A stretch of 64,000 nt of DNA from Antedon bifida (Eukaryota; Echinodermata; Crinoidea; Comatulida; Antedonidae). The notes beneath the pieces were generated by a model. It was not told where the DNA came from and searched no databases. It was given only the letters and a program-made list of their open reading frames with translations. Both the position numbers and the translations under genes were made by a program. The stretch covers positions 1,550,001 through 1,614,000 of the forward strand of contig OY727093.1 of assembly GCA_963402885.1 (NCBI GenBank), given 5' to 3'. This document shows positions 19,959 to 62,400 of the stretch, one piece after another (within the stretch, counting starts at the first letter, position 1; the number at the start of each line of letters is the position of its first letter).

Positions 19959-20030
19959 GCCCCAGTGGTCTAATGGTTAGGACATCTGCATATCAAGCAG
20001 GCGGTCCGAGTTCGAGTCTCGGTTGGGGCG
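19959..20030 (+). tRNA. tRNA-Glu-like gene with ATC anticodon, copy 2
   Basis: Identical over all 72 bases to the first copy, with the same ATC anticodon, discriminator G and following T-run. Perfect conservation of the gene along with its spacer shows unit-wide homogenisation rather than selection on the tRNA alone. Confidence 0.75.
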
Positions 20031-20325
20031 ACTTTTTCTCATTCTCACAGATTTCCTCATCTTTATCGTTTCAAATTAATTAATTAAATTTCAGTATATC
20101 ACCGGGCGGTTTAGAATTAATGTTCTTTGCCTCTTGTGTTTATATATATAAAAGTATCTCTTCGGAGATCCCGCCTCGTGAATAAAAATACTGAAAGATG
20201 AGGGCGTATCAATTTGATCTCTGTTGCGCGTGCGTACAACTGAGGACTAGTGCTGTTCCGCCGTACCACGCCGAGAATGTTAAAGAGTCGTTATTATCCA
20301 ATCGAGTTCGAACAATACCATGAAA

Positions 20326-20397
20326 GCCCCAGTGGTCTAATGGTTAGGACATCTGCATATCAAGCAGGCGGTCCGAGTTCGAGTCTCGGTTGGGGCG
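20326..20397 (+). tRNA. tRNA-Glu-like gene with ATC anticodon, copy 3
   Basis: Identical in sequence and flanks to copy 2, in the third 367-bp unit. B-box core GTTCGAGTC and T-run terminator are intact. Confidence 0.75.
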
Positions 20398-20692
20398 ACT
20401 TTTTCTCATTCTCACAGATTTCCTCATCTTTATCGTTTCAAATTAATTAATTAAATTTCAGTATATCACCGGGCGGTTTAGAATTAATGTTCTTTGCCTC
20501 TTGTGTTTATATATATAAAAGTATCTCTTCGGAGATCCCGCCTCGTGAATAAAAATACTGAAAGATGAGGGCGTATCAATTTGATCTCTGTTGCGCGTGC
20601 GTACAACTGAGGACTAGTGCTGTTCCGCCGTACCACGCCGAGAATGTTAAAGAGTCGTTATTATCCAATCGAGTTCGAACAATACCATGAAA

Positions 20693-20764
20693 GCCCCAGT
20701 GGTCTAATGGTTAGGACATCTGCATATCAAGCAGGCGGTCCGAGTTCGAGTCTCGGTTGGGGCG
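20693..20764 (+). tRNA. tRNA-Glu-like gene with ATC anticodon, copy 4
   Basis: Identical tRNA sequence in the last unit. One base differs about 14 bases past the 3' end (CATTATC instead of CATTCTC). The unit then runs out into AT-rich flank after the TATATATA stretch. Confidence 0.75.
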
Positions 20765-21156
20765 ACTTTTTCTCATTATCACAGATTTCCTCATCTTTAT
20801 CGTTTCAAATTAATTAATTAAATTTCAGTATATCACCGGGCGGTTTAGAATTAATGTTCTTTGCCTCTTGTGTTTATATATATAATTACATATATATTAT
20901 ATGATTATACAATATAAATATAGAAAAACCTTGTATTGATATCTTTATAGATCATTTAGCTGATATCATTATCTTGCTAAGTTAGGGTGATAGAATCATC
21001 GTAAAAGAATGTACAACTGTCGCCTACAGCTACAATGCTGGTGTCTAAAGTGGTAATATTATCCAACTAATGTCTCTGTTATTTAGTCATTCTGAACATA
21101 CTAATATCACTAGCAGGTTTTATATTTGGAAGAGTTATTTCTGTACAGATTATTTT

Positions 21157-29902: not shown

Positions 29903-32900
29903 TTATGGTTTGAAATCTGATGCATCAACAAGACATTTATTTTGCCTGTACATTTGTAGTAATTCCTTCCACTTGGGGTGAGTTTCAAGCATGTACTGGT
30001 TCCCTGTGAAGATAGAGCAAAATGTTACATATTCAATACATTTGTCTTCCAGTATGCCTGTTTCTATGTTGTTATTTCCTCTTTAATCCTTTCATGTTGT
30101 GCTTATTTAGTTCTTACCTATAAGAATGAGTCCTTTCTTAGCTCTGGTCAGTGCTACATTCATTTGGTTTTCATCAGCTATAAAACCTAAATTGGTCTTT
30201 ATCCATCTAATACTTGGTCTCTTTTCAATCTCAACTCTTGGTAATGACCGTACAGTTGACATGATTACATAATCACATTCGCTACCTATAGGGTATAAAT
30301 TGTTTCATCCGTTATTTCAAAATAGTATACTGTGCTAGTGTTTGCAATTTGTATGTTTCTCTTTGGATATGGATGTATTATTGATTTGTGCCTAGATTTG
30401 TTGTAGGTCTGTTAAAACATGAATATTATCTTGTAACCATACCTTGGCTAAGAACCACAGTTGAAACAAGAATTATTTCTTTTCCACATTTCTTAAGATC
30501 ATCTCTGATTCGTTGACATTGTAATCGATATTGAGACAGTATCATGATATCTTTAGGTTGCACTCCTTTATCCAGAAGTTTGCAAGCAATCCGGACCTAA
30601 AAAAATGTTAATTTTGTTCATTTTACCTCTTTAATTAATAATGAACAAACTTTGCAAAGATCTCTAAACCATGTTCACACCAAAAATGAAGATTCTAGGT
30701 CACCGAGAGTTTGAAAGAGACTCTAGTAACAATACATTAGGCTAGGAAATTCTACTGTTCTTGCTGAAAATGCTTTGTACCACAATGAGAATCACTAACC
30801 ACATGATCAACCTCCTGTGGGTTGCTTTTGCTTTGTTCTCCTCCTTCTAAACTTTTAACAGTCAGTGTCTCCTCTTTACCATACACATGGCAGAATAGAG
30901 TTGGACAACTAGAACCAGCTGGCCAAAACTGCTCTTGCCAGTTTTCGGTTTTACGATTTTTAACAGAATCGTCTGTCACCAATTTGTTTTTGTAGAAAGC
31001 GCTTGATGGAAACTCACAGATTTTTGGATGCTAAGAAGGAAAATGAATTAACGTCCAATTTAATTTGTACATTGTAATTTAATATAGTGGTGCAAGATAT
31101 ATTTTGATATCTATATTCTGTATGATAGCACCATATTTTTTCTAATGCTACAAATATACAGTACATTGAGTAGAGGTATAAATCGTTCAAATAGTGTTAA
31201 AATTGAAATACTGTATATAAATTAAAATAGTAGACTTACCATTCTGTACTGTATAGTTAACATCAGTGCCTTTTCCTCGTAACGCTCTAGTAGAGATATA
31301 CCCATACCTAAATCCTCTGCACGTCTCTCAGTAATGATTGGTCTGAAATGACATTTTGTAATTAACAGGACAAAACAAGTTTTCTAAACAAATTAAGTGA
31401 ATTATCGTAAACTGCCTATTCCTTTTCAACATTTCTGAATCATTCTTACCTCAACTGTTTGTGATCTCCAATAAGTACCACTTGGTAAGGTGAACACATA
31501 ACAAGAGGGATAAGAGACTCCGGTTCACTACACATCCCTGCTTCATCTATGATACACTGTCTAATATAATTTTTTTTATTGATAACGTTTGAACCAGCTG
31601 AATTGCAAGTTGCTAAGATGATTTTATATTTCTTAAGTTCTTCTCTCTGTAATTATTAAGAAGATTGTTATGTTAAAGATGTATTGTCCCTTGAAACACA
31701 AAAAAATGAAGGTCAAAATATTCTAAATTTAAATTGGCCATATCAAAGTAATATTAAAGTTATTCACTTTAAGTCGAAAATTCGAGCCAAAAGCAACCAG
31801 TTTACGTAATTAACAGGTAAATTAGTTGGATTACATTCCGTCTGGAAAATCGTCGCGAGCGAAAGTAAACAAAGATTTCAAACCACGAGTACGCATTATG
31901 CATATGCTAATTAGGATTGTTTACAACTCGTCACGGTTGAGAAGGTATTTTCACACAGATCGTGAGGAAGTTTTATGATTATGCATACAGAGACTAGCCA
32001 AACAAGCGCGTTTCATTATGGGATATGTTTTGATCGAAAACTTTGACTGGAAGTCAAAGTTATTTTTTTAACAAAAAAACGTCTGTATTTCAGTTAAATG
32101 ATTTTTTTTTTCGTCAAATTTTTGGTGATAGTTAATAACTATTATGATACTTCAAAATGACCCACCTTTTTTTGAAATCTGTTATTTTTTATTTTTTTGA
32201 AATTAGTCAAAGGGACAATACATCTTTAAAGATGATCGTATTTGTTTTGCTAATCAGGCTATGCCGATTCTGATCGCGACATCGAGCCAAACACTTGTTG
32301 CATTGCTTGTGTTTTAGGCAAGACACTTTACTTATGTTTGCCTCTCTCCACCAAATTGGTACCTGGTAAGGTCAAGACACAACTGCGCTTATTAATAGCT
32401 GCAACATTATGGAAGTATGTTTCCATACGTTTTTTATCCAAAATGGAATGAACTATTGTATATTATTATCGTTTAATTAAAGGATTCAGCTGATTTCAAT
32501 CTAAATTTACCTTTGCTGAACTTATCAGTTGATGATATGATTTTCTTCTTTCTTTAGGAACGACTTCACCTGGTTTTAGTTGTTGGAAATCATGATCTAC
32601 TTTCCTTATTTCAGCACTCTTTGAATTTTCATTGGTCCTGATGAGATAATGTAAGGCAATGTTGACATGGTCAGGGTCAGTAGAGGACTGTATGTCAGCT
32701 TTTTTTATATTTTTCTCCCATGGAAGTGGAAAATCTTTCTTCTCAATAGCTTCACTGTAAACTCGTACAACAGAAAGTCTTGGAAACTTCTTTAAATATC
32801 CTATTTTAAAACAAAATGTGTTTACGACTGGTTTAGTGATTTTATCTAAGGAAAGGCAATTTTATTTTAATCAAGAAAACGAATTGTTATTGCTTTTATG

Positions 32901-35900
32901 GTTCTATTCGAAGCTGTCAAAATGGGAATAAGTATTACCTGCAACAACATCAACAGACTTGTTAGATGGTCCACAGTAGAGAACCTGTGGCTGCCCTTTA
33001 CCAGTAGGTGATATTTGTGTGTTCATCTCGGAAAAGTAGTATGCTAGTTGTGCGCCTGTCACAGATTTTCCAGTTCCTTGATTTGTGAAATAAATAATTA
33101 AAAAGTTCAATAATGTAAGGTAAACTCCAAAACGCCATAGAATGTGTAAAATTATTGCAAGATTCTAAAGCCTAGACATTACATAGAGTTTTTTTTTCAG
33201 GAAAAGGTTTTCAGTGTACAATGCATTAATTTTGGGTAGTTACAGTATAAATTTTATTTAGGAAAATTGAGTTCTAAAGAGCTCAAAACACAAAACGTAT
33301 TTGTGTACCTGGAGGTCCTTGTATGACTGTAAATTGGTTTTCCAAAGCTGTAGTTATTGCCTGCTTTTGGACATTATTTGGTGGTGGCAAAGCTACATCA
33401 CTCATTTCTCCGACATCAATTGTTTTTGCAATTTCAAGAATTTGTTTCATAGCACCTAAAAAAAATGTATTTTAACATAAGTTTAAAATAAGAAAGAAAA
33501 AATCATTTTATATAATCATATAATTATCATGATCCTTCATCATGATAAGTTTTAGTCCGGTGGCAGGAGGGGGGAATCACCACCCGAAAGGGGACAAATT
33601 GCCATCCAACTTTTCTAGACCAGAATTTTCCGTAGATTACGAATATGGAAGGTAATCGATCAGGATAGGAAGCGTTTTCGAGATATAAGGGGTCAAAGTT
33701 CAAAATTGACCAATTACAACAATGTATTATGTATATGTATTATAACAAATTTATTGAAGCACAATTTGGTCTTTTATTACATTTTTATGATTATAATTGT
33801 CTATTCAATCACCTTATGAAAAAAAAATCCTTTGTAATTAAGGGTCAAATGTCAATATTGACCAATCATAGAACGTACCTATAAAACCAAATAAAAACTT
33901 ATATTTAATAAAAATTGGATGTTTTCTCATCCTGTTAATCAATCATACGCAATGTAAAAGAGCGAATACATCATTTCATCAGTTGACATAAGGTCAATTT
34001 CATCAGTTGACCTAAGGTCAAAGGTCAACATTTTAATACACGTATTAGTTAACAAATAAATGCAAAGTTGTCCAAACTATGATGATGATGGTTTTACAAG
34101 TAATCAAATTATTTGATTAGTAAAGTTATGTTATTTCATTATAATTTTGATTAATATAATTATAATTGATACTGTATTTAATCAAATCAGACTTTGATCA
34201 GGATAGGAAGCGAATAGGAAGAGATAAGAGGTCAAAGTTCAAAATTGACCAATTATAACAATGTATTATATCATACATGTATTATAACCAATTTATTGAA
34301 GTTCAATTTGGTCTTTTAATACATTTGTATGGTTATAGGTATCTATTCAGTCGCTTTATAAAACAAATACTTTTCAATTAAAGGTCAAATGTCAATATTG
34401 ACCAATCACACAATTTGCATATAAACCCAAATAAAAACTAACATTTAAGAAAATGTTATGTTTTATCACTCTGTTAAGACATCTATCAATCATACACAAT
34501 CAAAAGAGCACATTTATCATTACACAAGTTGACATAGGTCAAAGGTCAACATTTGAACAAGTGATATACTAAATAATGCAAAGTTATTCAAACTATGAGA
34601 TCGATGTTCATAAATGTAATCACGTTATTTGATCAGTGAAGTTATGGTATTTTTATATTTTTCTAGTGCGCATTATTTTAAATGTATTAATATAATACTG
34701 TAAAATAAATAATAAAATTAATTATTAATATTATGACTGTTATGATGTTAAAATGTTACGCTGACCTTCAATGATTTGCCACTATACAGTTGAATTTATT
34801 AGGGCTACAATATTCGTTTTTGGAAAATAAACTACTATTCATCTGAACCAGAGAATACCAATTCGTACAGGATAGGGCATAGGCAGATCCAGGTGGCCAA
34901 ACTCAATCCACAACTCACTACACAGACAGACCACAATTTTTATATAGCCACAGATAGTTTGGCCCATACAGGAAAGAGTTTCCTGTACACAAAAGATTCT
35001 AAAATAACCCATATGGATTTGCCCGAATGAACCCTCTAAGGACCCTTTTGGGATCTCTATGTGGTGTGCTACATAAGGCCCTGTATTAGAAATTAATATG
35101 GGGTAAATAGTTCATAGATGAACTATGGAATAAAACTAAAATGTTCACCCTCAATCTTTAAATAACATTTATGGATTTGCCCAAATGAACCCAAGGGCTG
35201 ATCCTTCATGGACCTTTCGGGGTTCTCTATGTGGGTCTACAAGAGACCCTATATTGGAAATACTGTATGTGGGGTGAAAATGTGGGTTCATAGAGATATA
35301 ATAAATATCCCTGTGCACCCTCGATCATCCATAAGAAACATTTTATGGATTTGCCAAAATTAACCTAAGGGCCGGTCGTTCTCCATGGATGGACATTAAG
35401 CCCCATAATGGAAATATAAGGGGTGACACTGTGAGTTCATATAGACAGGCGCGGCCCATGGAATAAAGCTGCCTGTGCACTCTCGATCCTTAAGGAACAC
35501 TTATGGATTTGCCAAAATTAACCCCCCAAAGGCCGGTCCTCCATGGATAGACATTAAGCCCCATAACGGAAATATAAGGAGTGACAATGTGGGTTTATAT
35601 AGACAGGCACATGGAATATAGCTGCCTGTGCACTCTCGATCCTTAAGTAACCGATTTATATTTTGCCTAAAATGAAACAACAGCAGGTCATCTATTTAGA
35701 CCCTTCTCTACTGTATGTTCAGTTCTACATTTGGCCCCTGTATCGGATCAATGCATTTGGCTACATACTGTGTTATAAATATATCGGGTAACTAAAACTG
35801 TAGGTTCCAATATTAAGCCATGGGAAAAGCCTGTCTGTGAACCCTCAATCCTTTTAAAAGGAACCCATATGGATTTGCCAAAATGAACCAAGGGTAACTT

Positions 35901-38460
35901 CTGAATTCTCTATGAACCGTACATTCCGTTTATTGGAGATACATGGATACCTGTTTGAAATTGCTCAAATGTTTCTGAAAGACATTGTACTGTATAGTAG
36001 TAGTATTCCCCTTCCACACCTCTTTGAATTAAATCCCCCCGATAGGCTCTTATGTACAGGATTTCAAAGCAATAATCACACTTGTATTTTTCAAGCAGTA
36101 TAATCTATTAGATTGAATAAAAATATCTATTATAAACAATTTGCCGTTAGAAATCTCTATGCCATGTCGTTATTTAGATGAGAAAAACAAGTCAAAGGTT
36201 AAAATTACAGAAAAATAGTGTTTCAGTCACTTTTTGAAAGAAATGTTGCATTATGGCAAGTATAAACATATATATTGTGAACAATTTGATACCAAAATTG
36301 GCTCCTTACAACAAATATTTATTAATTTATGTTTTTATAACCTTATTCAATTATGTCAAAGGTTAATAACCACACTTCCGGTCATTTTCAAGCAATATCA
36401 TCTGTTACACTGAATATAAATGTATATCTTGGGAACAATTTGCTCCTATTTTTAATTCTCTCCGACCTGCCGTTACTTAGATATAGCAAAAAGAGGTCAA
36501 AGGTCAAAATTGCTAAAAATGGGGTTTCCGGTCAATTTTACAAAGAACGTTCTGTTAGAGCTAATATAAACATATACATTGTGAACAATTTGACACCAAA
36601 ATTATCTCACTAGGTCCAGAATTTCCAGAGATATAGCAAGTTTTTATATTGGTCAATTTTGAACTTTGACCCCTTATATCTCGAAAACACTTCCTATCCT
36701 GATCGATTACCTTCCATATTCGTAATCTACGGAAAATTCTGGTCTAGAAAAGTTGGATGGCAATTTGTCCCCTTTCGGGTGGTGATATCCCCCCTCCTGC
36801 CACCGGACTATTTAGCATATGATAATGAGAAACCGAAAGAAAACATATACTGTAGAATTCAATCATCTATTTTTGCAAATGAGATGTCTTGTTGGATAGA
36901 AATTGGGCCAATAAAATTGTGTGTAATGACTTGATTGATTAATTCTAGATTAATCATGTTTCTCAAATGTTTTTTTTTTTATTTCATTTCAATAATTTAT
37001 TCATCCAAAAAAGAAATATTTAAAAAAAATAGGATAAAAAACATTAAAAGATGATTTTGTGTTCACATAAAATCAATCAATCAATCGTTTGATTTATATA
37101 CCGCCATTCCAACAGTCATTGCTCATGGCGCTGCGAAAAAATATCAGAAAATGTGAGTTTTGGATAGTGACTGGTTTAATCATGGTATTTGGTGAATGTG
37201 AACCTTCTAATTTCTATATAGGCCTAGTGTCATTGAATACCCACCTGTAAGTGTTTTCTGTCTTTTGGGTATTGCTCCTGTTCTAACAAATTTTGCCTCA
37301 TCACTAGCAGCTTCTAAAAGAAACAAACAATTTTAGATAAATTTTTGTAAGAACTTAAATTATGTAAGAAAAGAAAAAAAAATTATGAATGAAAACTTAT
37401 AACCAGCAGTTTACCAAACAAAATATACTTTAAGAAGCTTTTTTGGGTTTGATGGAATTTCCTAAAAAATACTTTTAATATACTACAATATACAATTAAG
37501 TTCATCAAAAGAATACTTACCATCTAATAGTCTGCCCGTCATAAGAACAATGTCTATGTTAAGTCGTGACTTGCCATTACTAAGACCTTTTACAGCATAT
37601 TCAAGCCACCTGTGGACATTTAGATTGAATTACATATCTTTAATAATTCACCTATTTATAGCCTTTCAACATTTCTGTTTTTGTATAAATGGTACCATAA
37701 TAAAATGTATATGCTGCCACAATCTTTAAATCCATAAGTTTCAAACATGGAGGTATAAATCTAATTTTATATTTCCATGTTTCAAATATTGTTACTTGTA
37801 AATTTGTGCTCCCAATTTTGTTTGTTTTTTATTGATTTCCTCACTAATCATCATTAACCAAAATGCAAACAGGCAGTCAAACGTACAAGATACTACAATT
37901 AGTTGTCAATTATTTTGTGTTGCATCTAAAAGGTGCACAGCAATAACCGGTTAAATTGTGTTCAACCCTCTATTGTTTGGGTCTTCCCTCTATTGTCTGG
38001 GTGTTTTGACTGATTTTCATGCTGCCATTTAACTGGTTAATTGAAATTCTGCTGCAAAGAAATTGTGGGGAATTTATTCAAACGGTTATTAATCGGCTAT
38101 TTTTTAAAGCAGAATTCAATTAAATGTTCGCAAAAAGCCAGCAACAACCTCAAATTTGATCATAGGTCTGTATTTTGATTGATGTGATTTTCAATTGCTT
38201 ACTGATCAGATTGTCCTTGTTGAATAAGCTCAATAGTACAAAGATGTTTTTTCTTTCGCTGTTGATAAAGTATACTCAATGGCAGTTTTGAGGCATTTAG
38301 TCTAATGACAATTTTTGCTGATTTACTTTCTTTTGAGTTGACAATCTCTGTTATGTAGCAGTGACCAACCCATGCATAGTTGACACCAGAAAGATTCTGA
38401 CCTTTGTGTGGTATGTAATCACCATAATAACGAACACATAAATAGTCAGAACATTTAAAT
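29903..38460 (-). CDS. SF1/UPF1-like helicase 2 exons of gene A
   Basis: Twelve exons from 38,460-38,203 to 30,003-29,903. Motifs: Q-motif-like LPPPNNVQKQAI, Walker A GPPGTGKS split across an intron (2653-2660), LYCGPSNKSVD, Walker B IIDEAGMC (2832-2835), GDHKQLRP, IQYRMHP, motif IV ILSQYRLQ, motif V STVVLSQGSECDYVI, and motif VI MNVALTRAKKGL. The protein ends SDFKP. This is the C-terminal helicase of the HELZ2 layout. Introns hold a 557-bp MITE, a SINE fragment and a 3.26-kb inverted-repeat element. Exon lengths match gene B except for in-frame differences. Confidence 0.93.
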
Positions 38461-41400
38461 CTGGAAAAAATTATTAAATATATTAATAAAAGTTTATGTA
38501 AAACAAGAATTACTTCTGACTATTGAAATGGATTAATCCAAAAAAAACTTGATCCTAGTAAAAAGGGGTTTGTTTGTCAATTTCAATTGTTATGTAATTT
38601 AAGTTCATGTTTCTAGACCTATATGTTGAAATATGAGGAAAGAATGTAAAAGATGATAATTACCTAATACTTCGTTGTTCGTAAAAGTTATCTTGTAGTT
38701 GAAACACGCCACTGTAATTATTTGAATCAAATGTCCAACTGATTGAGACATTTCGTATGATAAGACTTTCATCATCAGATACAGCCTTTGATGCAGATGC
38801 CATTGATAGCACTGCCAACCAACGTTGCTGATATGTACGTAAATTTTCCGCATCTCTCGGTTTCTTATTTGCTAATTGAGAGAAACATGTAACAGGATCA
38901 GAACGATGTTCTAAACATATGTCCAGTTCAGGTGTCAAGTTGAAGAGTTGGATTTTAGGTTCAGGAATTCCTCGTTTAAATTCTGCAGTAAGCACAACTT
39001 GAACTATATGTCCAGGAGAATATTCTCTTTCAAATTCTACAAAATGATGCCTGTTGCCATGTCTGTTTAAAACTTCTGATGTGACTTCTTTCTTCAACAG
39101 TTTTCCATTTGTACTTTTGACCATAGTTCTTTGGTTTTTTTCTTTTTCTTTAGTTTTAATTTCTTGGGCAGCATAATGCATTGCAGCTCGAATTTGATGG
39201 ATATCGTCATCTTCGATTCCAGAAAGAATTTCTTGCCAATAAGTACTGTTAAAAGTAACAACAAAACGGTTTGCATCCAACTCTCCTGCAATGCTGTCCA
39301 TTTTTGGTAGAGCCTCTTTGGGTTCTGCTTTTTCATCATATACTCTTTCCTTCCATATCAAACGGATAGTATCTTCTTTAACATCTGGTTTCTTCGATGG
39401 CTTTAACTTATTTAAACCCACAACTCTGTTATTGATTGGTATAACACTAGGAAAGTCAAAGGTAATACAGTTGTCTGATACTTGTTCCACAACAAGACGA
39501 CATGATATTGAAGACTCTTTCAATTTTAGAGCCATAGTTAACAACTTGGTGCTCTTTTCAAAAGCTGTAGCATTTGAAGACTGAATTGAACAGTTATAGC
39601 AGATGGAGCCAATTTCCTCTTCAGTATAAGGTATGTCTTGTTGGTTGATAGCTGCATCTATAAGGCGGTGCACAACAATGTCAATGTACCGTCTTATTGG
39701 AGATGTAAAGTGAGTGTAGAAGTCAACTTCAAGAGAATGATGTGCCAGATCTTGACCATTGGAAATGCTTTGACCAGAACATTTGTAATCTGACTTCTCT
39801 TGTATCATGTTGTAGTGTGCCATCATTACAGAGAGCTTTGGATGTTTAGTATCAGTACAAACAATCTGGATAATCTTCATCATTTCAGCAAGACTGGCAT
39901 CAGAACCTTGCTTGATGTTATTTACAATTCCAAACAAATGGTCCCATTCCCGTTTCTGCATTGTAATTGTGTTACTTTGTTCACCACATTTACAGGCATG
40001 ATCACAATTACACTGTGAAGAATCAACATAGCCTTTAAACTTTCCTAACATCTTTTTACTATTTCTGATATCTGCTAAGTGTTTTACTTGAAATTCCAGG
40101 AGCTTTTCAGGATCTGGTGAGAGTTGCCTCCTGAGTGGAACACATTGAGGAAACTTTTCCATCAGATACCCTGCAACAGCTTTGTTTGCAAGAACGATAA
40201 ACTCCTCAATCAATGAATGTGCAAGAGGACAAGATACCTCTTGTTCATCTTCATTGTATGAAAACCGGCCTTCCTTAAGGCGAGCTGCGCGAGTCTTCTG
40301 AGCTAATTCATTCAGTGCATGAATTGCACTTACAATGGATGGTTTTACATCATTGTTTCCATTGTGAATGATGTCTTCTACTTCTTTGTATGTGAATTTT
40401 TGTCTGGACTGAATGATAGATTTCACTATTTTAGAATGCAGACTATCATTTCTTATATCCATTAATACAGATATTGTTAACCTATCCTTTCCTGGAATTA
40501 AACTGCACAAGTTATTACTAAGTCTTGTTGGTAGCATGTTGATGGGTTCTTCTTGCATGGGATAATATGTAATGCCTCTTGTCTGTGCCTCTTCATCAAG
40601 CAATGTGTTGTTTCTTACAAAGTAGCTGACATCGGCGATGTGAACTCCTACTTTATAATGATCATCAGCAAGTTTATGTATGCTAAGTGCATCATCAATA
40701 TCTTGGCAACCCTTGGGGTCGATAGTAAATGTTTCAATGCTTCTTAAATCGGTTCTCTCTCTTATTTCATCTTCTGGAATTGTCCAATTTTCATGAAACT
40801 TGCTCTCAAGTTCTTCGCGAACTTTCTCCTTCCAGGTATCTTCAACACCATGTATAAGCTTTAGAATTCTAATCCCCTTTGCTTTGTTAGTGGCTGGAGG
40901 CAGCTCTTCTGTAACAAATCCCATTGGATATGTCATATCATCTAACCAATTCCAATAACGTACTACAAATAATTTATGAAAACGGTCCTTATTTTCCACC
41001 ACAACTTTGCGTTCAAAATAAAATGGCTTCTTACTGTTCAGCTGTTTGTTTAAGGTGTATATGTTTACAGTAACATCCTCAATTGGTGATTTGTTTTTAT
41101 CCTTTGTTACTATACAAAGTTTTGGGAAGTCTTTGTTTACAGGTACCATAAGGCTGTTACTATGCTGATCTAGCATGCAAACTAGCTCACGCAAGTAGGG
41201 GTCAGATGCTCTTTTCAAGATATGAACAACTCTTCCATATATTTCTGATGTGATTTCATCAACTTCAGCTTCTTTAATTTTGATAATAACATCATCATTG
41301 TTTAAAGCTTGCCCTCTATTATGCTTATTAGTGATTGAAATCCTATCTTCTTCTAAAGTAGTAGCATATGTCTTTCCTCGAACATCAACATGGAATTTGC

Positions 41401-44400
41401 ATCTCTTGTATTTTTCTGGTTCTGAATCGAGCAGTGATTCATATTTCTTGTCTTGTTCTGATTCTTCACTATGTATGTTAGGATTGTACTCAAAAAAATC
41501 AGCACCTTGAAGATTTGAATAGTCTGTATCAGGAACAAATAACTCTTTGACAAGCTTCTCTACTTCTCTTCTGGATTCATTCACATCGCTCTTGTAGTTG
41601 CTTTCCTGAGATACATCATCTGTCTGACTGTCTTTCTTAACTAGACCCCTGAGCACTTCTAAAATTGAATCATATTTTGCTTTCTTGTCATCTTTAGATT
41701 TGTTGTATTCATATTTATTTTTTCCTTCATCATCAAAGGTTTTAGCAACATCTATTGTGGTTAGAGGCGGGAAATCCTCTCTGATTTTAGCTGTCATCTT
41801 TTTCTTTGAAACATCCTTTTCTCCAGAGAGTTTGAATGGAGCAGCAATTCCAATATCTTTACGTATTTGTTGTAGGGTTAAATCATTTGCATACAAACTT
41901 TTATGCTGGTCGCATGTCTGGAGGAATTTCTTCCAAACATTTGAGCAATTGCCACGAATAGAATACATTGTTGTAGGATCTCCAACAACTACCAGAAGAG
42001 ATTTGGCTCTTGTGAATGCAGTGTTTAACATCTTTTCATCAGAAAGAAATCCATAATCATATCCTGCACTTTCATCCGGACTGCTGTATGTGGCATTAGC
42101 ATTCTTCTTTTCCAGTGCTGCTTTTGTTCGCACAACACTGATGAACAATGCTCGAAATTCTTTACCTTTAGACAACAATATATATATATTTAAATATATT
42201 AAGTAATTTAAAAAATAGTGATTAACAAGAAATCGATACAACAAATGTGAATAGGTTATGATGATTGGAGAGATTTTTAGATTAATAAGAAACTCTTTAC
42301 TAATGTATATGTGGCATCTTCAAGAAAAATCAGACATGAGTAGGAAACAGAGAAATACTGAAACTACATGATCCAAGATTTAAAATACGAAAAAAATACC
42401 ATGTGTACTCATGTGTACTTCCAGAAATATCACAGTTTAAATGTTTGGTTGTTATAATGATAGAATAATAAAATGACAAGTACAAAAAAATAAACAGGGC
42501 GTTTAGGTTTAGGCCTTAGTAAAGGGGTATTATGCACAATTTTTATGAAAAACAACCCATGCGAACACTTTCAATTTAAGCATAAAACATAATACTGTTT
42601 CAACTATCGTTTGTATTTGTAATTGTTCAGCCTTTTTTTGTTTTTGGCTGTATATACAAATCTACCTGCGACTTATGTCTGATTTCACTTACATATGTGC
42701 CACATATGTCAAAGATAATGTGCTGTATTTATACTAAAATTTAAAAAAATTTAATTAAAATTGATTGCAGGATAATTGTTTGCAGACAGTAAAGTACTTG
42801 TTAGGTTGATTTGTTTTAGCCACCAAATTGTTATGGTATGGTCTTAAATTACCTTGAATGTTTCTAACACTCTCCACAGCCACACCTGGCAAATGTCGCC
42901 TTCGGAGTTCACTACGAATTTCACGCACCTGAAATTTAAATTGTAAAGTAAGATTTTGCTATTTTTCATACCTTAAATAAAAAACAAATGAGGTTTACAT
43001 GCCTGACATCCATATGTTGTAACAACACCAATATCTTTTTTCATTCCCCATTCTGGCGGCCAGTTATTATAAAGATCTTCAACTCTGTTTCCAAGTTCTT
43101 TAGCTTCATCCCTATTGCAGTACGATGTTCCCACAAGACGATCTTTGCCCATGACTGCATAAAACGATAATGGGTACAGGGTGGGGTGTGGTGGATGCTC
43201 CTTCATTGAAATTAGCTTTGTTCCATAGAATGCTTCTGATACAAATGATAAAATTTCCTCACAGGTTCGGTAGTTGTAATGCAAAAATATAGTATTTTGG
43301 TCGCCTGTGTTTTCATAATGATCATGTAGGCGTTTTAGAATAGATTGATCAAATCCACCAATACGCGCTTCCTCAGAATAGACCTATAAAAATAATGTTG
43401 TATTACTGTTATGGCTTAAATTTACCATCTATAAACCAAAGTATAGTTTCAATTTGATATAGTACTACAGTATAAAATGTACGGACGGTAAATAGATGCT
43501 ATTATATGGTGGACACAGTACTTATATAAGCTATTTTAGACTTTTACAAACACCATAAGAATACTATTACCTTTGGACTCATTTGAATATGATCACCAGC
43601 AATTGCTACACATGTCTTCCTCTCTGCCATTGCTAACGGCATGATAGCTTGAGTCTCTAATGCCTGACCTGCCTCATCAATTAGTATGTGTGTGAAATGA
43701 CCTTTCAAGTTTAGTGATACTAATCTTAATGCCATATTAAGGGTACAGATGACAACTCTAGATCTCTTCACATCATCTCTGGTTGGTAGATTGATTGTAT
43801 TTTTGGTTTGGTCAATCAGACAATACTTTTGAACATGTGGATGTATGGTGTTAATGCGTCGTCTAGGTTGGTACACGCGAAGCAGCGTTGGTTTTGGTCC
43901 TACATGTTTTGGGTAGGTTTTGAGATATTCATCTAAATGTTTTGTAATGTACAGATCTGCCCCACTAAGTGATTAAAAATATAGAGTAATTAAAATGATA
44001 TAACATTTTCTATATTTCTTAGTAGTAGCTTGTAGTAGATGACAATATATATATTATATTTATACGCCATGGAATCTGGAGATTTGCTAGCCGATGTGAA
44101 AGGGGTATAAAAGTAATATTATATAGAAATAAGACAAGATACGGAATGAGCACTTTTTCTATGTAAGAACATAACCAAATTAATTTACAAACCTATTGGA
44201 CATGGTACAAATCAAAACTGTTGAGTCATCTTTAAGAAGGATCTTCTTTACAGACTCTGCCATGGTTCTTGTTTTTCCTGTACCAAACGGACCATATATG
44301 ACCAATGGCGGCCCGCTAATTGCTGGTGTTCCCGCCAAACACTGTATTACTTGTTCTTGGCCTTTGTTGTCGTTCTCTATTGGGAAATCATCTGGAATAT

Positions 44401-47400
44401 GCAATCTATCTCCTCGGGTTGGTAATACAGAATCAAGATTTGTTAAACTATCAATAGCGTAGTGCATTTGACAGAAAAGTAAACGGTCAAGCTGAAACTG
44501 AAACTCAATGCTTTTCGGGCCAGCTTCCAGTTGAAGTTTTTCTACAAATTTTGCGTTCAGGTTTACATAGATGTAATCTCCACTGATACTTTCATTGGAT
44601 ACAATTTTAAGTTCGTAAGCTTCATTTGATTCTGAATCAAATTTGCACAATACCGTTTGTACAGATTGCATGATAAGCTGGTTTGATTCAACGTCAAAGT
44701 TTATAGTTTCAGTTAAGTTTATTTTACCATAAAGTTCACCCTTTCGAGCAGTTAACAGTTCAGACGCAGCATAAGATTCAATTGTAATACTACTTAAAAT
44801 GTCCATCTGTGCCGTTGTGTCCAACCTATTGAAGAATTAAAAACATTATACATTTATATACTGTATCATTTTTTTCGATGTTGTATGCTGTATCATAGTG
44901 AAAGAAAAACCCACCAAAATAATAAACACTTTGTGATAGTTTGTGTATACCAAAGCATTGCTAGTAATCTTGGCACTCTTCCCTGGTTCCAATCCTCTCA
45001 ACGAGGTGCATTTTGTTGTTTTCTCCCCTAAATTGCTGTATGTCAAATTGTACAATGTAGTTTCAGAAATCTTTTAATTCATTATTCTAGCATCTGCCCC
45101 AACCAGTGCCACTGTAAAAGGTTATTGCCTAGGCATCAGGGAATGGTCCCTCCGGAGACAACTAAGTAAAAATATGCTATGTCACATACCTGTTAATCAT
45201 TTTCATTCTATCTCTCTCCTCCAAGTTCAACATTTTGTGCATCCTATGTTTGTAATTTTCCCGAGTTAGCTCGCCTTCATTCAAGTAATCGATATTTAGA
45301 TTGGCACCAGGTGGTTTGTACTTCCTTAAGAGGTCTTCGTCAGAAGAGCTGTGTTTAGTTGATCGGATTATCTCAGTATTACTTGTGTCCCAAATATATG
45401 TGGACTGACTTTTACTATTACTTTCACATTCACCTTCAGCACCAACATGAACTTTAAGTTCTCGAAACATAATTGGCTTCTTCCCAAAATCAAAGACAAC
45501 CCATTGATGGAAACTTCCAAGCTTGTGTGTGGTGAAATGTACATCTATGTTGTAGGCACCATATTCATCCATGATCATATTTCCAGGGCAAACCTGAGGT
45601 CTAACTTCTTGTTCTGGACGTGACAAGAAAAACTGCAAGCGATGTTCATCGTGTAGTAAGCCAATACGTTTTAGCCTTCCTTTCTAAAGATTAGTAATGA
45701 TTTTTTTAGTCAAATTAAATAATGTCTATAATATGTTTTCACCAAAATTAGATTTTATTTCATTGATTTTTTAAATTTATTTCTTGTTTAGATATTCTTT
45801 AAAGAAAATCTGAATATGGGGAAAGCACCAACCCAAGTGAACTTGTGTATTTAAAAAAAAATTAACTTCACTTACTTCAGTACATTTCACCTGAAAATGC
45901 CAACAGCCTTTAAATGTGTCATCAGACTTGGCATCAATAAAACAGTCAAGTTTGCTGTCACAAGAAATCCAAATGTTTGGCAAATCTTTTTCAGTCATCT
46001 AAAAATATTTATTTAATAGCATTAACAACCATTACATTAATATGATTCTATTTCTATTCATTTGGTCATGTGGGAATAAAGCAATTGATACAGTACAGTA
46101 TGACCCCATTTACATCAACGATTTTATAGGCTTTAAACTATGACCGTGTGCGTTTACACTACACAGGGCACTATACGGAGTGCTGACCTGAGGCTTGCAA
46201 ATGCCGGCCCAAAGCCTACTCTACGGTAGGATCAAAATTGTAGCGGCTCAAGACCGACTCTGTTATTCCCAGAGTGTTTATTTACTTATATACTGTTGGC
46301 TTGGAGCTGGCTAATACCAAATGTGTATAATGGAGTTTTGTATAGGGAATGCCCTCTACTAAAAATTAGAGTTCAAGGCAACCAGCACAATATAAGATTT
46401 CCTTATTATTATTAGTCATTCAGATCAAAACGTAATAGTACATATACTTTATTTTGGCTTACTTTTTACTTTAATTTCTCTTTAGCTTTGTTTTGTTATG
46501 TAATTTGAAAGTTGTAAACATACAGTTTTCAATTTGTTATTAAATTATCCATATATAGCCAAATTACTTATAATAATGTTAATTACTGTAGGCCCCTACT
46601 GTGTAAACAAAAAATTCATCTATATAAACTGTACTCTTACTATATCTGCCCTAATAAATGCTGAGTTGTACTCATCCAAGAGTTGGTCCATGAATGTGAA
46701 GAGTTTACTCTCCTTTTTCTCTCGTTTCATCATTCGATATTCGTGTCGTTCTTTCCATTCTTCCAATTCTTCCTGAGTATGTGCCTGCATGCATTGGTTG
46801 TTAGCTGGTTCTGCATTAGAGTAGGGGCAATTATTCTCCTTGTTTCTAACAATAATAAAAAATACATATATAGTTAAATATTACTGTCATCTACGCACCA
46901 TTTTGTTGTGTTTTTGTTGTGTGCTTAACAAAATAAGACGTTGATGATTATAATAATAATGATGAAGATGATGACGATGACGGCTACGGTGACAATAAAA
47001 GTATAAAATATAATAACAATATATTTATTTTATAGTGTTTTTTTTAACATTTAAATGAAGTTTAGTTTATTAATCTAATCTTGATATATATATATAAAAA
47101 TAAAATACCCTATTACCTATCACACATAACAAAAAGACCATTGACAATTTTAAGAGGTGGATTTCGATGTTTCCAATTTCTGTCAGTGTCGGAGTCAACC
47201 CACTTTTTGTGTTCCAAAGTGCTGATGTGGGAAAGCAGCAAATCAAAATCAATCTCACAATAATAACAATGGAGATTTACAGGAATGCTCTGAGAGCTTA
47301 CTTGTTGATTAGTTTGCAGTGTGCCCGATACTTCTGTAGCAGGTGTGGATGTGTGAACCCTTTCAATATTCTGTGCTTTCTGGGTCTGATCCTGTTCAGC

Positions 47401-50400
47401 AAAATGCACATCAGAAAAACTACCAAATGACAAGCCAACAAGCTGTTGGGGTTGCTGCCAGTAAGTGGGTACTTCAACTGGTGACATGGTATTACTTAAT
47501 TTCACACTTTTTCCATTTAGCTTATCAAGAGCAGCAATGTATATTTGTTGATCAAACTGTGTCTCCCAAGTCTCTTCAAACTCCTGTCGGTGTTTCTCTG
47601 AAAAAAGTATTCCTGCTATATCTTTGAGAAGTTGTCCACTTTGATGCAGTTTCCAGAGATTTGTAAGGCCATTGGGATCAACAAAAGTCACATGAAATAC
47701 TATGGATCCCTTTGTTATTTCAACAAATTGACAATTACGGAATAAAAGGTAACCTATCAAATTATTCTCCTTGTCATAACATACTGCTCTAATGTCTTCA
47801 TCTGTAAACTGTCTTTTTGGAGATGGTAGATCTTCAGAATCTTCAGCTTTGCGTTTTTCTACAGAAACGGTTACTTGAGCACCTTTAGTTAAAACATACA
47901 TATACATTTTCATTAAAACATTTTTATTAAAAATATCAAATAAGCCTAATGGGTAATGTGATTTTAGGACTCAATGAAACAATCAGTGTGCGATGCATAT
48001 TCAATTACTAAAATACTGTATATAATTTATTTTAGACAACAATGGCATTGTAGTATGGAACGCCTCCTCTGCCTTCAGTTCACATTTATCATGCAGTACA
48101 CACCAATGGTCATGCAGTACACACCAATGGTCATGCAGTACACACCAAACATCATGCAGTACACACCAATCGTCATGCAGTACACACCAAACATCATGCA
48201 GTACACACCAATCGTCATGCAGTACACACCAATCGTCATGCAGTACACACCAATCGTCATGCAGTACACACCAATCGTCATGCAGTCAAATATTGCGTAA
48301 TTTATACCGCCACCTATCGACAAAATCGAATATCACGTGACGTTTATTAGACGGCTGTAAAACTAAGGCTATTCAAACATTATAATACAGCAACTCACGC
48401 TGTCTACTACTACACCGCACATGCTTTATGAGTAAAATGGCTGGAAAAACTATTACAGAAATCTTGGAATCTATAGGACGTAAAGCATGTGCGGTGTAGT
48501 TGTAGACAGCGTGAGTTGCTGTAGTATAATGTTTGAATAGCCTTAGTTTTACAGCCGTCTAATAAACGTCACGTGATATTCGATTTTGTCGATAGGTGGC
48601 GGTATAAATTACGCAATATTTGACTGAATGATGATTGGTGTGTACTGCATGACGATTGCTGACGATTGCATGACGATTGCTGTGTACTGCATGACGATTG
48701 GTGTGTACTGCATGATGTTTGGTGTGTACTGCATGACGATTGGTGTGTACTGCATGATGTTTGGTGTGTACTGCATGACGATTGGTGTGTACTGCATGAC
48801 CATTGGTGTGTACTGCATGACAATTGGTGTGTACTGCATGATAAATGTGAACTGAAGGCAGAGGAGGCGTTCCATATTGTAGGAGTAGTAAACAGTAAAA
48901 AACAAAATACATACAATTGCCAAGTAGATGATTCTTAGCTGTTTGGTTAAGACATTTTGCAAACCTCATTATTTTTTTTTTTTTATCTTCAAGAAGTTTT
49001 TCTTTTTCCAGATGGAATACTAAGTCCCAAGCAGTTTTGAAATCATCTTTGTTTAATCTGTAGTTCGCAGTAATATCACTTAAGTCATCTTCTTCAACTT
49101 CTCGTAATGCCATAAACAAGTTTTTCCGATATTCTGACAGCCTTTTTTGCACTGCATTTTGATTATTTATACTACTTCCTTCAAAAATATATTTAGTTAC
49201 AAGGTCCTTTGCTTTTATCAACTCTGAAATTTCTGCTATTTCCCATAAAAGATGAACATCATTATGTAGTATATAACCACGTTCCTCTAATGAATTTAAT
49301 AACTCATTTCCTTTATTTGTAGCTTTGAGGTCACTTAAAGGCAGATGATCAAATAAGCAAAACCTTAACCATTTGCATTTGTGAGATTCATATAGTTTAC
49401 TGAAGTCAGATTTCAAGTCCATAAACTTCTCATCAGCTTCATCATTTGCCATTTCACAAAATGTTTCTGTCTGCAAAAAATGGTTGAAAATTGTTATGTG
49501 CAAATATGATAATATAAAAGAAAAAACAAGGCAACCATTTAATATATATTTAAACTTTATTAAAAAAAATTTGAAATATTGATAGTCAAATGCTTGTATA
49601 TAAATTGTTCAGGACAAGCAGGAGCTGAGCAGTTATTAAGTGTGTGTCAGAAATGCTTACTTACATATTGTGGATAATAAATGTAATATGTAGATACAGT
49701 AGGCAGCAGCGATGGTGGATCAACAAGAGGAGCTGTTAAGTGTTCAGCTACAATAATATTATTGTTTTGTCCTTCACATTCCCCTACCTTAAAATTTATG
49801 TGTCTCCAAGGTTTACAAAATATTATCCATGGAGAAAAAAGTTTACTGCTAAATACATTTTTTTTAATGGGCTAAACTGAGCCTTTATGGCATTACGAGC
49901 TACTGATAGCCAGCCAAAGAGAATTAAACCACCAAGGTATGATGGGAAATGATGCTATAGTGCGTGAGAACAAAGGTGTAGGCTATTGTATTGTGTTACA
50001 ACATGTGAATGAAAGAAAAAAGATGCTTAATATTTCAGGTAGAGGGCGCATCCACCGGAAGTTTACTTGGTGATTTACAGGATTTATTTTTTGTTAGTGG
50101 CACACATATTCTTCTTTAGTGGTGCAACAAAAATAAAAAAATAAAACAATGAGGTAAAAAAGAAAAGCAAATCATTTACATACACTAATTACAAAAAAAA
50201 GAAATAACAAGGCTATACCCAATATATAGATAAATAAATAAAGAAATCATGGAGGTAATTTTTTACAAAAATGTAATTAAAATTCAGTTTAAAATAAAAA
50301 CCTTATAAAGAAAAAAGTATGAAGTGCATTACTATGGAGCATGTGCAGTTTACAATTCAATTCAAATGGTAATATAATTTAAATTGCTAGCAGGTGTATA

Positions 50401-56497: not shown

Positions 56498-59400
56498 TTA
56501 AGGTTTGAATTCTGATGCGTATTCAACAAGACATTTATTTTGCCTGTACATTTGTAGTAATTCCTTCCACTTGGGGTGAGTTTGAAGCAAGTACTGGTTC
56601 CCTGTAAAGAAAACAAAATGTCATGAGGTAAACCACCAGTGCACTTTTTGTAAATTATTCTTATTTCTAATTCTCTCTTAATCTTTTTAAAAACTGCCAA
56701 AACACATTGTTAGTATTACTATTAATTGTTTCTTCCTATACAAGAATTACTTTTGTAAATGAAAAAGGAGCCCAAACCAAAATTGGAGAGCTAACTTCTC
56801 TCATAGTACTTACCTATAAGAATGAGTCCTTTCTTGGCCCTGGTCAGTGCTACATTCATTTGGTTTTCATCAGTTATAAAACCTAAGTTCATCTTCATCC
56901 ATCGAACACTTGGTCTCTTTTCAATCTCAACTCTTGGTAATGAACGTACAGTTGACATGATTACGTAATCACATTCACTTCCTAGTGGATGGAAATAAAT
57001 TTGTTTAATGCCAAAAAAAAAGTTTCATAGTATTATATTGCAATCTGTAGTTTGTTTTTCTATTTATGTGCATGGAGAAAAACTAATCACATTCTGTGAG
57101 GAAATAAATAAATCTTTCGTATTTTGTTTCCCATATTTGAAAAGTACAGATTAAAGTACTCTGGTCAGAGAAGTAAATATGCCTGTTACTTTTGTCTGTT
57201 CATGTCTAACAAGTTCATGTACATATATCAGAAATTAATTGACCTTGACTGAGAACCACAGTTGAGACTTGAACCTCCTCTATTCCACACACTTTCAGAT
57301 CATCTCTGATTCGTTGACATTGCAAGCGATACTGCGATAGTATCAAAATATCTTTAGGTTTCACTCCCTTTTCCAGCAGTTTACAAGCAATTCTCACCTA
57401 CATAAAATTTTAATTGACAACATTTAGTATTAAAAGTACAATTTGTATCATAACAGTAATAGTTGTACAAAGATTTAGGCCTAAAACTAAATGGTCACTG
57501 ATCACAAGGCCCATATGTAACAATTAATGCAAACTTTTATAAACACCACACCCATCAACCCCTTCCTCCTGTGTACATCAAAGTAGATTACTAACCACAT
57601 GATACACCTCTTGTGGGTTGCTTTTGCTTTGTTCACCTCCCTCTGAGCTATTAACAGTCAGTGTCTCCTCTTTTCCATACACGTGACAGAACACAGTTGG
57701 ACAACTTGAACCAGCTGGCCAAAACTTTCTTTGCCAGTTTTTATTTTTGCAATGTTTAATAGAATCATCTGTCACTAATTTGTTATCATAAAAAGCTCTT
57801 GATGGAAACTCACAGATTTTTGGATGCTAAAAGAAGCAGAAAACAAAATTATAAAATTAAGTAAACAACATGAAAATAAGATGGAATCAATTTAGGGAAC
57901 AAACTGTACCAATAAATAGACCCTCACTAGGCCTAGTAATGAAATGACTAATTAGGAGTTTCTATTATTTATTGTCTTGAAATATATAAATTGAAAATAG
58001 TAGACTAACCATTCTGTACTGTATAGTTAACATCATTGTCTTTGCCTCATAACGCTCTAGTAGAGATATACCCATACCTAAATCCTCTGCACGTCTCTCA
58101 GTAATGATTGGCCTGTAAATGAATATAACTATACTTTACGTTTTTTTTTAAATGACAATGCAAGTTCAAACAAATTTATAATGTGAATTATCTTAACTGC
58201 TCTTGTCAATGATTGTAATTGTTCATCTGGTTTGTAATTATTTAATGAAGTGTAAACAATTCATTTTATCAAACCAATTACAACAGATTAGATGGTAAAA
58301 ACCTTCTTTTCTTGACGGTTTGTTGTTCCTTTCACGAACAACTTCTTTAGAAGAATGACTACCTGTAATTAGACTAATTAACTTCTAGAGAGGGCCAGGT
58401 TTGTCTAATTACAGGGTCATGTATGTTTCTGAATTCTAGATTTTTTGTCATGCACTTTCATTCTTACCTCAACTGTTTGTGATCTCCAATAAGTACAACT
58501 TGGTAAGGTGAACACATAACAAGAGGGATAAGAGACTCAGGTTCACTACACATCCCTGCTTCATCTATGATACACTGTATAATACTGCAGTATTCTTTGA
58601 CACAATTGGAGCCTGTTGATTTGCAAGTTGCTAGGATGATTTTATGTTTCTTAAGTTCTTCTTCCTGCAAATTATTAGGAATAGCATATATGGTAATGCT
58701 TAACTGAAAAATTAATTTTGTTTTATACAAAAGTCTCATGATCTGAACAAAATTTGAGTTTACCTTTGCTAAATCTATCAGTTTTAAATATCTTGATTTT
58801 GTTTCCTCAGTAATGACTGTTTCTGGTCTCAGTTGTCGAAATTCTTGATCAAACTTGCATATTTCAGCACTCTTTGAATTGTCACCAGTTCTGATGAGAT
58901 GATGTAATGCAACGTTGACATGATCAGGGTCAGTAGAGGACTGTATATCGGCTTTTTTCCCGATGTTTTTCTCCCATGGCAATGGAAAATCTTTCTTTTC
59001 AATAGTTTCACTGTAAACTCGAACAGTAGATAATTCTGGAAACTTTTTAAAATATCCTAATAATAAAACAAACATTTCTCATTCTCTCATTATAAGCAGT
59101 AAGATTCATAACATATTCAATGCATGCAATGAATTTATATACATGACCAACAGGTTAATGTTGTAAGTGGTAGTCTGTCTATTATGTTATCGAATTAATA
59201 ATTTATCAAAAACGATTACCTGCCACAACATCGACAGACTTATTGGATGGTCCGCAGTAGAGAACCTGTGGCCTGCCTTTACCAGTAGGTGGTATTTGTG
59301 TGTTCATCTCAGAAAAATAGTATGCTAATTGCACTCCTGTCACTGTTTTTCCAGTTCCTAAGTAAATAATAACAATGACAAATTTTCTTTGTATGATACA

Positions 59401-62400
59401 TAGTGTATCGACAATGATATAAATATTATAACAAATAACAATATTAATTTGAAAGAAAAAGGAGAAAAACACATTTTGAATACAATAAATCATTATACAG
59501 TTTTCTGTTAATAGGTGTTACTTTACTAAAAGCCCTAACAAGTATTTATCATTGCCTTTTAAGTACTTCAAGCCCAATGTTTACATATTCATAAATATTT
59601 TTGTTTCATATTGTATTACTGTCTAGTAGACAGTGTTTACATACTTTTAAAAATACATGTTTAACCTAAAGATGTAATGTCTCCAAAACACATGAAAAAT
59701 GAAGATTAATTAATCAGACTTAATAAAGTATAATCACTTCCGAGTAAAAGAATAAGAAAAAAATTGTTTTCACTTATAAAATGACAAAATATAATTTCAA
59801 CCAAAAAATCAATTGACTGACTATATTTTGCTTTAAATTACATTTTTTCAGGTAAATAATTTTTTATTCGACCCAATTTTTGGTAAAAATAGATCTATTT
59901 GTGACATTGAAATGCAATATTCAAAAACAAAAAAATGTAAGAATTATTTTTTCAGGAGACATCAGAGCTTTTTTTTTCAGAAAAGGTTCCTAATGTATAA
60001 TTCATTCATTTCATTTGGACTGTATGAATTTTATTACCTGGAGGACCCTGTATAACTGTAAATGTGTTTTCTAAAGCTGTCTTTATAGCTTGCTTTTGGA
60101 CTTCATTTGGTGGTGGCAACGCTACGCCACTTATTTCTTTAACTTGAATAGATTTTGCAATTTCAGGAATTAGTTTCATAGCATCTCCTGAAAAAAAGAA
60201 ACACATGTTAAATTATGTTGATGAAACCTCATTTTGTGTTTTTTTTGTACTTGAAAAGCCTCTGCTATTTTTCCATAATTCCTGAAATATTATTGAAAAT
60301 ATTTTGTAGTTGAGTACCTGTAGGGTTTGCCTGTCTTTTGGGTATTGCTCCAGTTTTAACAAATTGTGCCTTATCACGACTAATAACTAAAAAAAAAATT
60401 AAGAATGAACTTAAACGTTAACACTGAAGAATTATGAACAAAATAATAACAATTTAAGGCTAAAATACAAGGCTGGTGTTATCAAAGAAAAAAAAATTAT
60501 AACTAGCAGTTTTACAAAATACACTTACAAAGCTGTTCATATGCAATTTTTTCTACTAAGTGTCAATAAATAAATAATAATTCTAGCCAAACATAAACCT
60601 AACCTAACCTTGGATATATTTGCAAGAAAATAAAATTTAAATCTTATTTAAATTATACAATTAAGAATACTTACCATCTTTTCTTCCACCCTTCAAAGAA
60701 ACAATGTCTTCGTTAAGCTTTGATTCGGTAAGACATTTTACAGCATCTTCAAGCTGCCTGTATGAATAATAAATTAAATTAGTTTAATGATTCATTCAAA
60801 TTTATAGCCTTTCAACCTTTAATGTTTGTATACTTACTGATATAAATGTTTTAATACATATGGCATGGCATGGCATATGAACGGCTTACCTAAAATGCAT
60901 CTCCTCTGACCTTGTTGCAAATCCTAAGCGATTTTGGACTTGGATCAAGTGTAAACAAAAAACTACATCAAATGCAATAAGTATCTCTAATGGGGTTAGG
61001 GTTGCTGACAGCCCGCAAGCAAAAGCCACACTATTTAACAACTTTTTTGTTTCAGCTTTCTCGGACTCCAGAGATACCCCTATTGCCGAGCATTTAGATC
61101 TGCCTGAACTCAACGTTGATGTCCACCAAACGTGCGCTTTATCTTTCTCGCATCCAACCATCTTTCAATTTCTGTTCAATTATTTACAACTCATTCTCTG
61201 CTTCTCAAGCCTCCAGAATAGATCGGACCCATAACAAGTTCTTGCGCTTTATCGGCCCAGCAGCCAACCTGCCTCCTATTGTTTCCCCGACATCTAGGAG
61301 AGCAAGACAGGATTTGCACTTCCTGTATAAATGTCTTACTTCTAAGTTTGATTGTTATTATCTTGTTTCATTATTTTAATGTTCCTGTTCGTAATCTTCG
61401 TAGTAAACCCTTTCTTCATGTTAAATATTGTCGTGTCAATGTTTGTAAAAATGGTATTTTCTGTAGACTCTCGTAATTGTACAATTCTTGTCTTTTAAAA
61501 AATAATTCTTTAGATATCTTTATCTGTAATTTCTCCCAATTTAAATGTATTATTAATGAAATTATTTAAATAATCTTCAAATTTTTGTATATACAGTATT
61601 TATATTGGCTTATATTTTATAGTTTAGTTATTTTATTTTCAACCTGTTATTGGTGTTTTACACTGTTGGCTTGAAATAAAGAATAAATAAAGAATAATGA
61701 CAATTTTTAAATCATCAAGTTTCAGATGAAGTATTAATAGTTTGGCTAGAGGGTGAACTCCAAAAGTAGGGGGGCCCAGGAATATGGCTGCAGCAGTAAC
61801 CTTTGATGCTCTAATCATGCCACAGTCATGTTACAGTAGGACTACATCTTTACAAATAATCAAGTTAACTTCAACAAAACAAGCTTCCTTCTTTAGTTAA
61901 TGTGGATCAAAATACTTACTTATCAGATTTTCTTTTTTCAATGACTTCAATAGTACAAAGATGTTTCTTCTTTTGTTGTGGATAAAGTATACTCCATGGC
62001 AGTTTTGAGGCAGACTGATTTAGTCTTATGACAATCTTTGTTGATTCCCTATCATTTGAGGTGACCTCTGTTATGTAGCAGTGGCCAACCCATGCATAGT
62101 TGACACCAGAAAGATTCTGATCTTTGTGGTATTTGTAATCACCTCGATACCGAACACATAGATAGTCAGAACTGTTCAATCTGAAACAAATTGTTAAATT
62201 GTATATTAAAATACAGTAAATGCTTGAAAAGAATTAGAAAAAGTTTAAACCTAAAAATTCGTCCCAGTAGAAAGGAGTAAATATTATATCAAACTAATTG
62301 TCATGAAAGTTCATGTACAAGCTGAATTAAAACAGTGTGGGGAATGAGGAAGTTTTAGAAAAATAAAGTGGGAAAGAATAGATTTTTGGTATAGAAATGT

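Follow-up and report, generated by a model that had tools for sequence, protein, structure and literature searches.

The window, a stretch of 64,000 nucleotides from the crinoid Antedon bifida (contig OY727093.1, positions 1,550,001 to 1,614,000), carries on its minus strand a HELZ2-type gene that very likely begins with an exon encoding a tandem death-effector domain (DED). HELZ2 is an antiviral enzyme that unwinds RNA and degrades it, and human caspase-8 assembles its cell-death signalling complexes through a tandem DED. The spliced model of the fused gene has 21 coding exons and 2995 residues with zero internal stops, and reads zinc fingers, helicase, RNB exoribonuclease and helicase in that order. 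Splice sites were picked by eye for an open frame and for fit to relatives and paralogs; the result is a model and not a transcript. The gene looks intact, and its splicing in the animal is inferred from this model. The coordinates of the features are collected in Table 1.

Table 1. Features of the fused gene, in window positions.
Feature	Position	Strand	Remarks
Exon 1 coding part, tandem DED, residues 1-179	48915..49452	-	phase-1 GTATGT donor; Pfam, profile, structure; exon starts 49470
DED1, six helices, model residues 2-92	49177..49449	-	Pfam, structure
DED2, helices from residue 107 to 177	48922..49134	-	profile and structure, not Pfam alone
Coding exon 2: TRADD-N-like domain, linker, C2H2-like zinc finger	47117..47882	-	
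TRADD-N-like domain	47491..47880	-	Pfam PF20694 short of the gathering score; beta-alpha-beta-beta-alpha-beta model of moderate confidence
C2H2-like zinc finger CYYC..H..H	47200..47268	-	aligned with finger of HELZ2-like P0003
Coding exon 3: CCCH-like finger (46779-46829)	46641..46845	-	finger by eye
Coding exons 4 and 5, before helicase 1	45190..45998	-	MOV-10 Ig-like, weak (E=0.005, under the cut-off)
Coding exons 6-9: most of helicase 1	42853..44825	-	Walker A GPFGTGKT, DEAGQA; GC donor in exon 8
Coding exon 10: helicase 1 end, OB_HELZ2 (41207-41458), RNB exoribonuclease (39644-40756)	38664..42165	-	with IDPKGCQDIDDA
Coding exons 11-21: helicase 2	29903..38460	-	Walker A GPPGTGKS, DEAGMC; stop codon at 29903 end

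Gene model and enzyme part

Exon 1 is bounded by the acceptor TTTTTTGCAG, with its first base at 49470, and by the GTATGT donor after 48915. The probable start codon is the ATG at 49452. The N-termini of two relatives, P0002 and P0008, read MAN- like that of the window gene; that of P0001 reads MDF-. The coding part of exon 1 contains 179 residues and one spare base, and its phase matches the start of exon 2 at 47882 (phase 1). In the alignment with P0001 and P0002, HELZ2-like gene models of Antedon mediterranea, the columns at the exon 1/exon 2 junction are gapless. These and the other relatives' gene models are predictions. GT-AG borders are found at 19/20 introns of the model and GC-AG borders at 1/20, the intron after exon 8 (window 42929-43002). 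The GC-AG join fits P0002, whose model skips the intron; the P0001 model appears to read into it. An exon candidate at 45073 was dropped, since exon 5 runs on into exon 6 in frame.

Pfam matches in the enzyme part comprise AAA_11/AAA_12 for helicase 1, OB_HELZ2 (E=4e-16), RNB (E=1.3e-78) and a second AAA_11/AAA_12. The RNB acidic motif IDPKGCQDIDDA, the Walker A sequences GPFGTGKT and GPPGTGKS and two DEAG boxes are present; the acidic motif and the Walker boxes are catalytic motifs. With two helicases flanking OB_HELZ2 and RNB, the enzyme part is of HELZ2 type and is a predicted exoribonuclease.

Several other features were seen in the window. Intron 1 contains a large inverted repeat (48054-48876), with arms of 346 nt that are 96 percent complementary and a 52 nt spacer, built round 21-bp tandem repeats; it is probably a mobile or hairpin element. 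At 19504-20885 lies a 367-bp tandem repeat of 3.8 copies with four tRNA-Asp-like genes of anticodon ATC, which is unusual. Fourteen near-perfect 40-bp repeats at 13366-13934 are open in three minus-strand frames, and the long open reading frames there are therefore spurious.

The N-terminal DED and TRADD-N-like domains

Exon 1 matched Pfam PF01335 with E=2.9e-6 and 27.9 bits. The score lies below the curated gathering score of 35.9 and was counted against the assignment. Two stretches of the exon were matched at E up to 10 and one at E up to 1; since a single stretch remains, Pfam alone supports DED1 only. The relative P0012 scores 36.9 bits against the same family, above its cut-off. With a 7-row profile built from six DED proteins that have no HELZ2 part, exon 1 scored 172 bits across both DEDs; 1000 shuffled sequences gave at most 9.3 bits. 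A second profile, of the 10 other rows of alignment A2, gave 220 bits vs 13.5 for shuffles. Among 1398 six-frame fragments searched with both DED profiles, none besides exon 1 reached E below 0.3. The 11-row profile A2 showed a colinear match to caspase-8 over positions 10-173 (E=1.3e-5). A 3-row profile, A1, covering the DED plus TRADD-N region did not find a DED in the PDB, and this was counted against. The predicted structure of exon 1 (pLDDT 89) consists of two six-helix bundles arranged as in caspase-8, and its best PDB matches are caspase-8 tandem DEDs. A Phe-Leu patch on helix 2 and the RxDL charge motif are DED hallmarks. RF is retained in 9/11 rows of A2; the window exon has the DL but lacks the Arg of RxDL, a point also counted against. 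Pfam (for DED1), profiles and predicted structure together confirm that exon 1 encodes a tandem DED.

Structures of cFLIP and vFLIP are also among the matches, and in these proteins too a tandem DED stands without an active caspase. The tandem DED of the window gene might thus be a decoy or brake of the cFLIP kind, restraining caspase activation in DED assemblies while the enzyme part degrades RNA. Caspase-8 is, however, closest both by sequence and by structure, and cFLIP was reached by profile only at E=0.46 or worse; moreover, the fold cannot distinguish an activator from an inhibitor. We regard a brake as unlikely.

Downstream of the DEDs, PF20694 was matched in 4/4 rows at E up to 1. The window protein gave E=1.2e-4 and 22.2 bits, below the cut-off of 23.7. 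Among five predicted models of this stretch the best had a pLDDT of 67.7 and the other four 40.7 to 62.6. The order of elements, beta-alpha-beta-beta-alpha-beta, agrees with the ACT/RRM-like fold given for TRADD-N in PMC8195603. Foldseek returned no significant match for the model (best E=0.047, not TRADD), and a profile search of solved structures with the same stretch gave no match. Exon 2 thus probably carries a TRADD-N domain, on sequence and modelling evidence that falls short of proof, and the N-terminal module would then be DED-DED-TRADD-N. The C2H2-like finger further along exon 2 is 62 percent identical over 39 residues to that of P0003. Because this HELZ2 zinc finger lies in the same exon, the TRADD-N-like domain is tied to HELZ2 with no splicing assumed, and one splice is required for the DEDs.

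The initial annotation had read exon 1 as two DED-like bundles. Profile and structure uphold this reading, both bundles being six-helical in the predicted structure, and in Pfam DED1 falls short of the gathering score. It had also joined exon 1, through the phase-1 GTATGT donor, to the zinc-finger exon at 47882; this junction is present in the sequence. The proposed fusion to a HELZ2-type helicase-RNB-helicase protein is reproduced by the in-frame 21-exon model and recurs in P0001 and P0002. The order DED-DED-zinc finger-helicase-RNB-helicase was right in its parts and incomplete, the probable TRADD-N domain of exon 2 having been missed.

Related proteins and the spread of the fusion

A search with model residues 1-480 matched 7 proteins. 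P0001 and P0002 cover 98 and 100 percent of the 480 residues, with 68 and 52 percent identity respectively. The remaining five, P0004 of Antedon, P0003 and three echinoid HELZ2 proteins, cover 20-26 percent. P0001, P0002 and P0003 all differ from the window gene. In the precomputed Pfam annotation of P0001 and P0002 a DED is missing, which was counted against the fusion. In a fresh Pfam scan a DED was found in P0002 (E=1.3e-4) and TRADD-like_N in P0001 (E=0.035); the absence of a DED from P0001, among the 25 of 29 families listed, was likewise counted against. A full-length alignment search, in which only the 7992 candidates sharing most words were scored, yielded 107 proteins, chiefly of RNase R-like type. 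When 116 proteins were scanned with the DED profile, 10 were above threshold, namely nine rows of the profile itself and P0032. The only HELZ2-length DED proteins among those scanned were P0001 and P0002. No DED was found in the 11 other HELZ2-like proteins scanned (five vertebrate, three echinoid, one oyster, P0004 and P0003). The earlier statement that vertebrate HELZ2 has no DED agrees with the five vertebrate proteins of this set.

A search with the N-terminal module identified P0008, a 366-residue A. mediterranea protein labelled isoform X2, which aligned as DED-DED-TRADD-N over the full query. Its residues 344-363 are identical at 17/20 positions to residues 3-22 of P0003, and at 12/19 to P0004. 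P0008 therefore appears to carry DED-DED-TRADD-N and, near its C-terminus, a stretch matching the first residues of HELZ2. Six other A. mediterranea proteins from this search aligned over both DEDs and have no HELZ2 part. The whole of P0014 gave zero Pfam matches. A different crinoid DED architecture was seen in P0032 and P0011 of A. mediterranea, where the DEDs lie C-terminal to another region; in P0032 this region has a precomputed Pfam match, PF16095.

The existence of a short DED-DED-TRADD-N protein such as P0008 raises the possibility that the DED exon is part of another gene or isoform, of DED-TRADD-N type, and that its fusion to HELZ2 is an artefact of the gene models or a rare readthrough. 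The relatives' models are, moreover, predicted, and that of P0001 has odd inserts. Against this, the single exon 47882-47117 encodes both TRADD-N and the HELZ2 zinc finger, the module is joined to HELZ2 in the P0001 and P0002 models, and the end of P0008 itself matches the start of P0003. An artefact is weakened as an explanation because the two domains share an exon and P0001, P0002 and P0008 all carry the module beside HELZ2 sequence. We consider it highly improbable, and the DED-HELZ2 fusion is very likely real.

In a tree of 12 HELZ2-like rows, in which the oyster branch is long and calls for caution, the window gene and P0001-P0004 were grouped with support of 100/100. The three fused rows were not resolved as one clade; 2 changes were required, and one origin was obtained in 44 percent of 200 bootstrap trees. 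The fusion may thus have had one or more origins. Upstream on the same strand, at window 56501-64000, lie exons for the RNB end and helicase 2 of another HELZ2-like gene. Its RNB-end segment is 83-86 percent identical to P0001-P0003, and its N-terminus is outside the window.

Conservation of the fused proteins was compared part by part. In the DED exon the window gene is 53 percent identical to P0001 and 58 percent to P0002, and these two are 56 percent identical to each other; in exon 6 the respective values are 96, 68 and 68 percent, and in RNB 83, 86 and 89 percent. The exon 2 linker was lower still, at 40 percent, in 2/3 pairs. The DED exon is among the least conserved parts of the fused proteins. 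Its low identity could be due to adaptation, to gene conversion affecting the middle exons or to weak constraint.

Possible function and comparison with known systems

In humans, HELZ2 is stimulated by interferon; it digests single-stranded RNA in the 3'-5' direction in vitro and reduces LINE-1 RNA, and for retrotransposition, mutations in its helicases outweigh those in its RNase (PMC9839780). In the crinoid gene, the N-terminus of a HELZ2 like P0003 or P0004, which is longer and has CCCH-type fingers, would have been replaced by the DED-DED-TRADD-N module. The two helicases and the RNB exonuclease would act as in the human protein, binding foreign or transposon RNA, unwinding it and degrading it. 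The tandem DED would serve as an oligomerisation arm, like the tandem CARDs of RIG-I, which present signalling domains when clustered on RNA. Clustering on RNA would then allow the DEDs to nucleate a helical assembly with caspase-8/FADD-like partners or with the animal's other DED proteins, and RNA decay would be linked to a death or inflammatory signal. The title of 5l08 describes filaments formed by the tandem DEDs of caspase-8. We give about an even chance to the proposal that an RNA-clustered HELZ2-type protein couples, through its tandem DED, the decay of RNA to death or inflammatory signalling. The RNA-triggered assembly, its partners and an immune role are inferred.

A further-reaching form of this proposal is that crinoids evolved a single-chain receptor-effector of RNA surveillance. 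On RNA that it cannot clear, this exoribonuclease-helicase would polymerise through its own tandem DEDs and elicit a caspase-8-like death or inflammatory response, and pressure from pathogens would make the DED exon diverge quickly from one paralog to another. This form seems fairly unlikely. The identity of 53-58 percent in the DED exon vs 83-89 percent in RNB was counted against the signalling proposal, as relaxed constraint may fit these values as well as adaptation does.

PMC8195603 describes lineage-specific expansions of DED-TRADD-N modules, joined in cnidarians and brachiopods to numerous effectors such as Mov10, DDX60, RIG-I-like receptors, Piwi, NYN and HEPN; echinoderms are given 18-23 copies of the DEDD2 clade, and the fusions to RNA helicases and RNases are proposed there to be immune proteins. 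The same paper predicts that the variable C-terminal domains on DED-TRADD-N constant regions act as effectors. HELZ2 is itself an enzyme, and the module could accordingly be a recruitment tag only, bringing an RNA-degrading effector to the death-fold/TRAF scaffolds of other sensors without signalling of its own. Such a tag is a fairly unlikely account. The fusion of HELZ2 with a tandem DED like that of caspase-8 and, probably, a TRADD-N domain is a natural experiment in the possible wiring of RNA decay to cell death.

The initial annotation had presented the protein as a possible undescribed innate-immune effector. This was overstated, as DED-TRADD-N fused to RNA helicases and RNases is already on record in PMC8195603. 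The main text of that paper has zero occurrences of HELZ, RNB, Antedon or tandem DED; its data tables could include a HELZ2 fusion that is unnamed or labelled Mov10. Within the collection of papers searched, none joined HELZ2 with a death effector domain, or a death effector domain with a crinoid.

With vertebrate and echinoderm HELZ2 the window gene shares the helicase-OB-RNB-helicase order, the RNB and Walker motifs and the zinc fingers before helicase 1; it differs from the 11 HELZ2-like proteins without a DED in having a tandem DED. Unlike caspase-8 and cFLIP, to whose tandem DEDs it is about 18 percent identical, the window protein has no caspase or pseudocaspase domain after the DEDs. 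RIG-I-like receptors of lophotrochozoans, with grafted DED and Death domains (PMC8998645), likewise place death-fold domains ahead of an RNA helicase; they have a RIG-I-type helicase, a C-terminal RD and no nuclease, whereas the window protein has two AAA_11/AAA_12 helicases and RNB. A further parallel is to the DEDD2-clade and NCOA6-clade fusions of PMC8195603, which have a DED plus TRADD-N module and, in the DEDD2 clade, RNA helicases and RNases (Mov10 and DDX60 included) as partners in lineage-specific expansions. Compared with the fusions described in that text, the window gene differs in its two DEDs, its HELZ2 partner with an RNB exoribonuclease and its crinoid host. What appears new here is a tandem DED with a probable TRADD-N domain on a HELZ2 exoribonuclease in a crinoid, the theme of DED-TRADD-N joined to a helicase or RNase being already known; that theme now takes in a crinoid and an RNB exoribonuclease.
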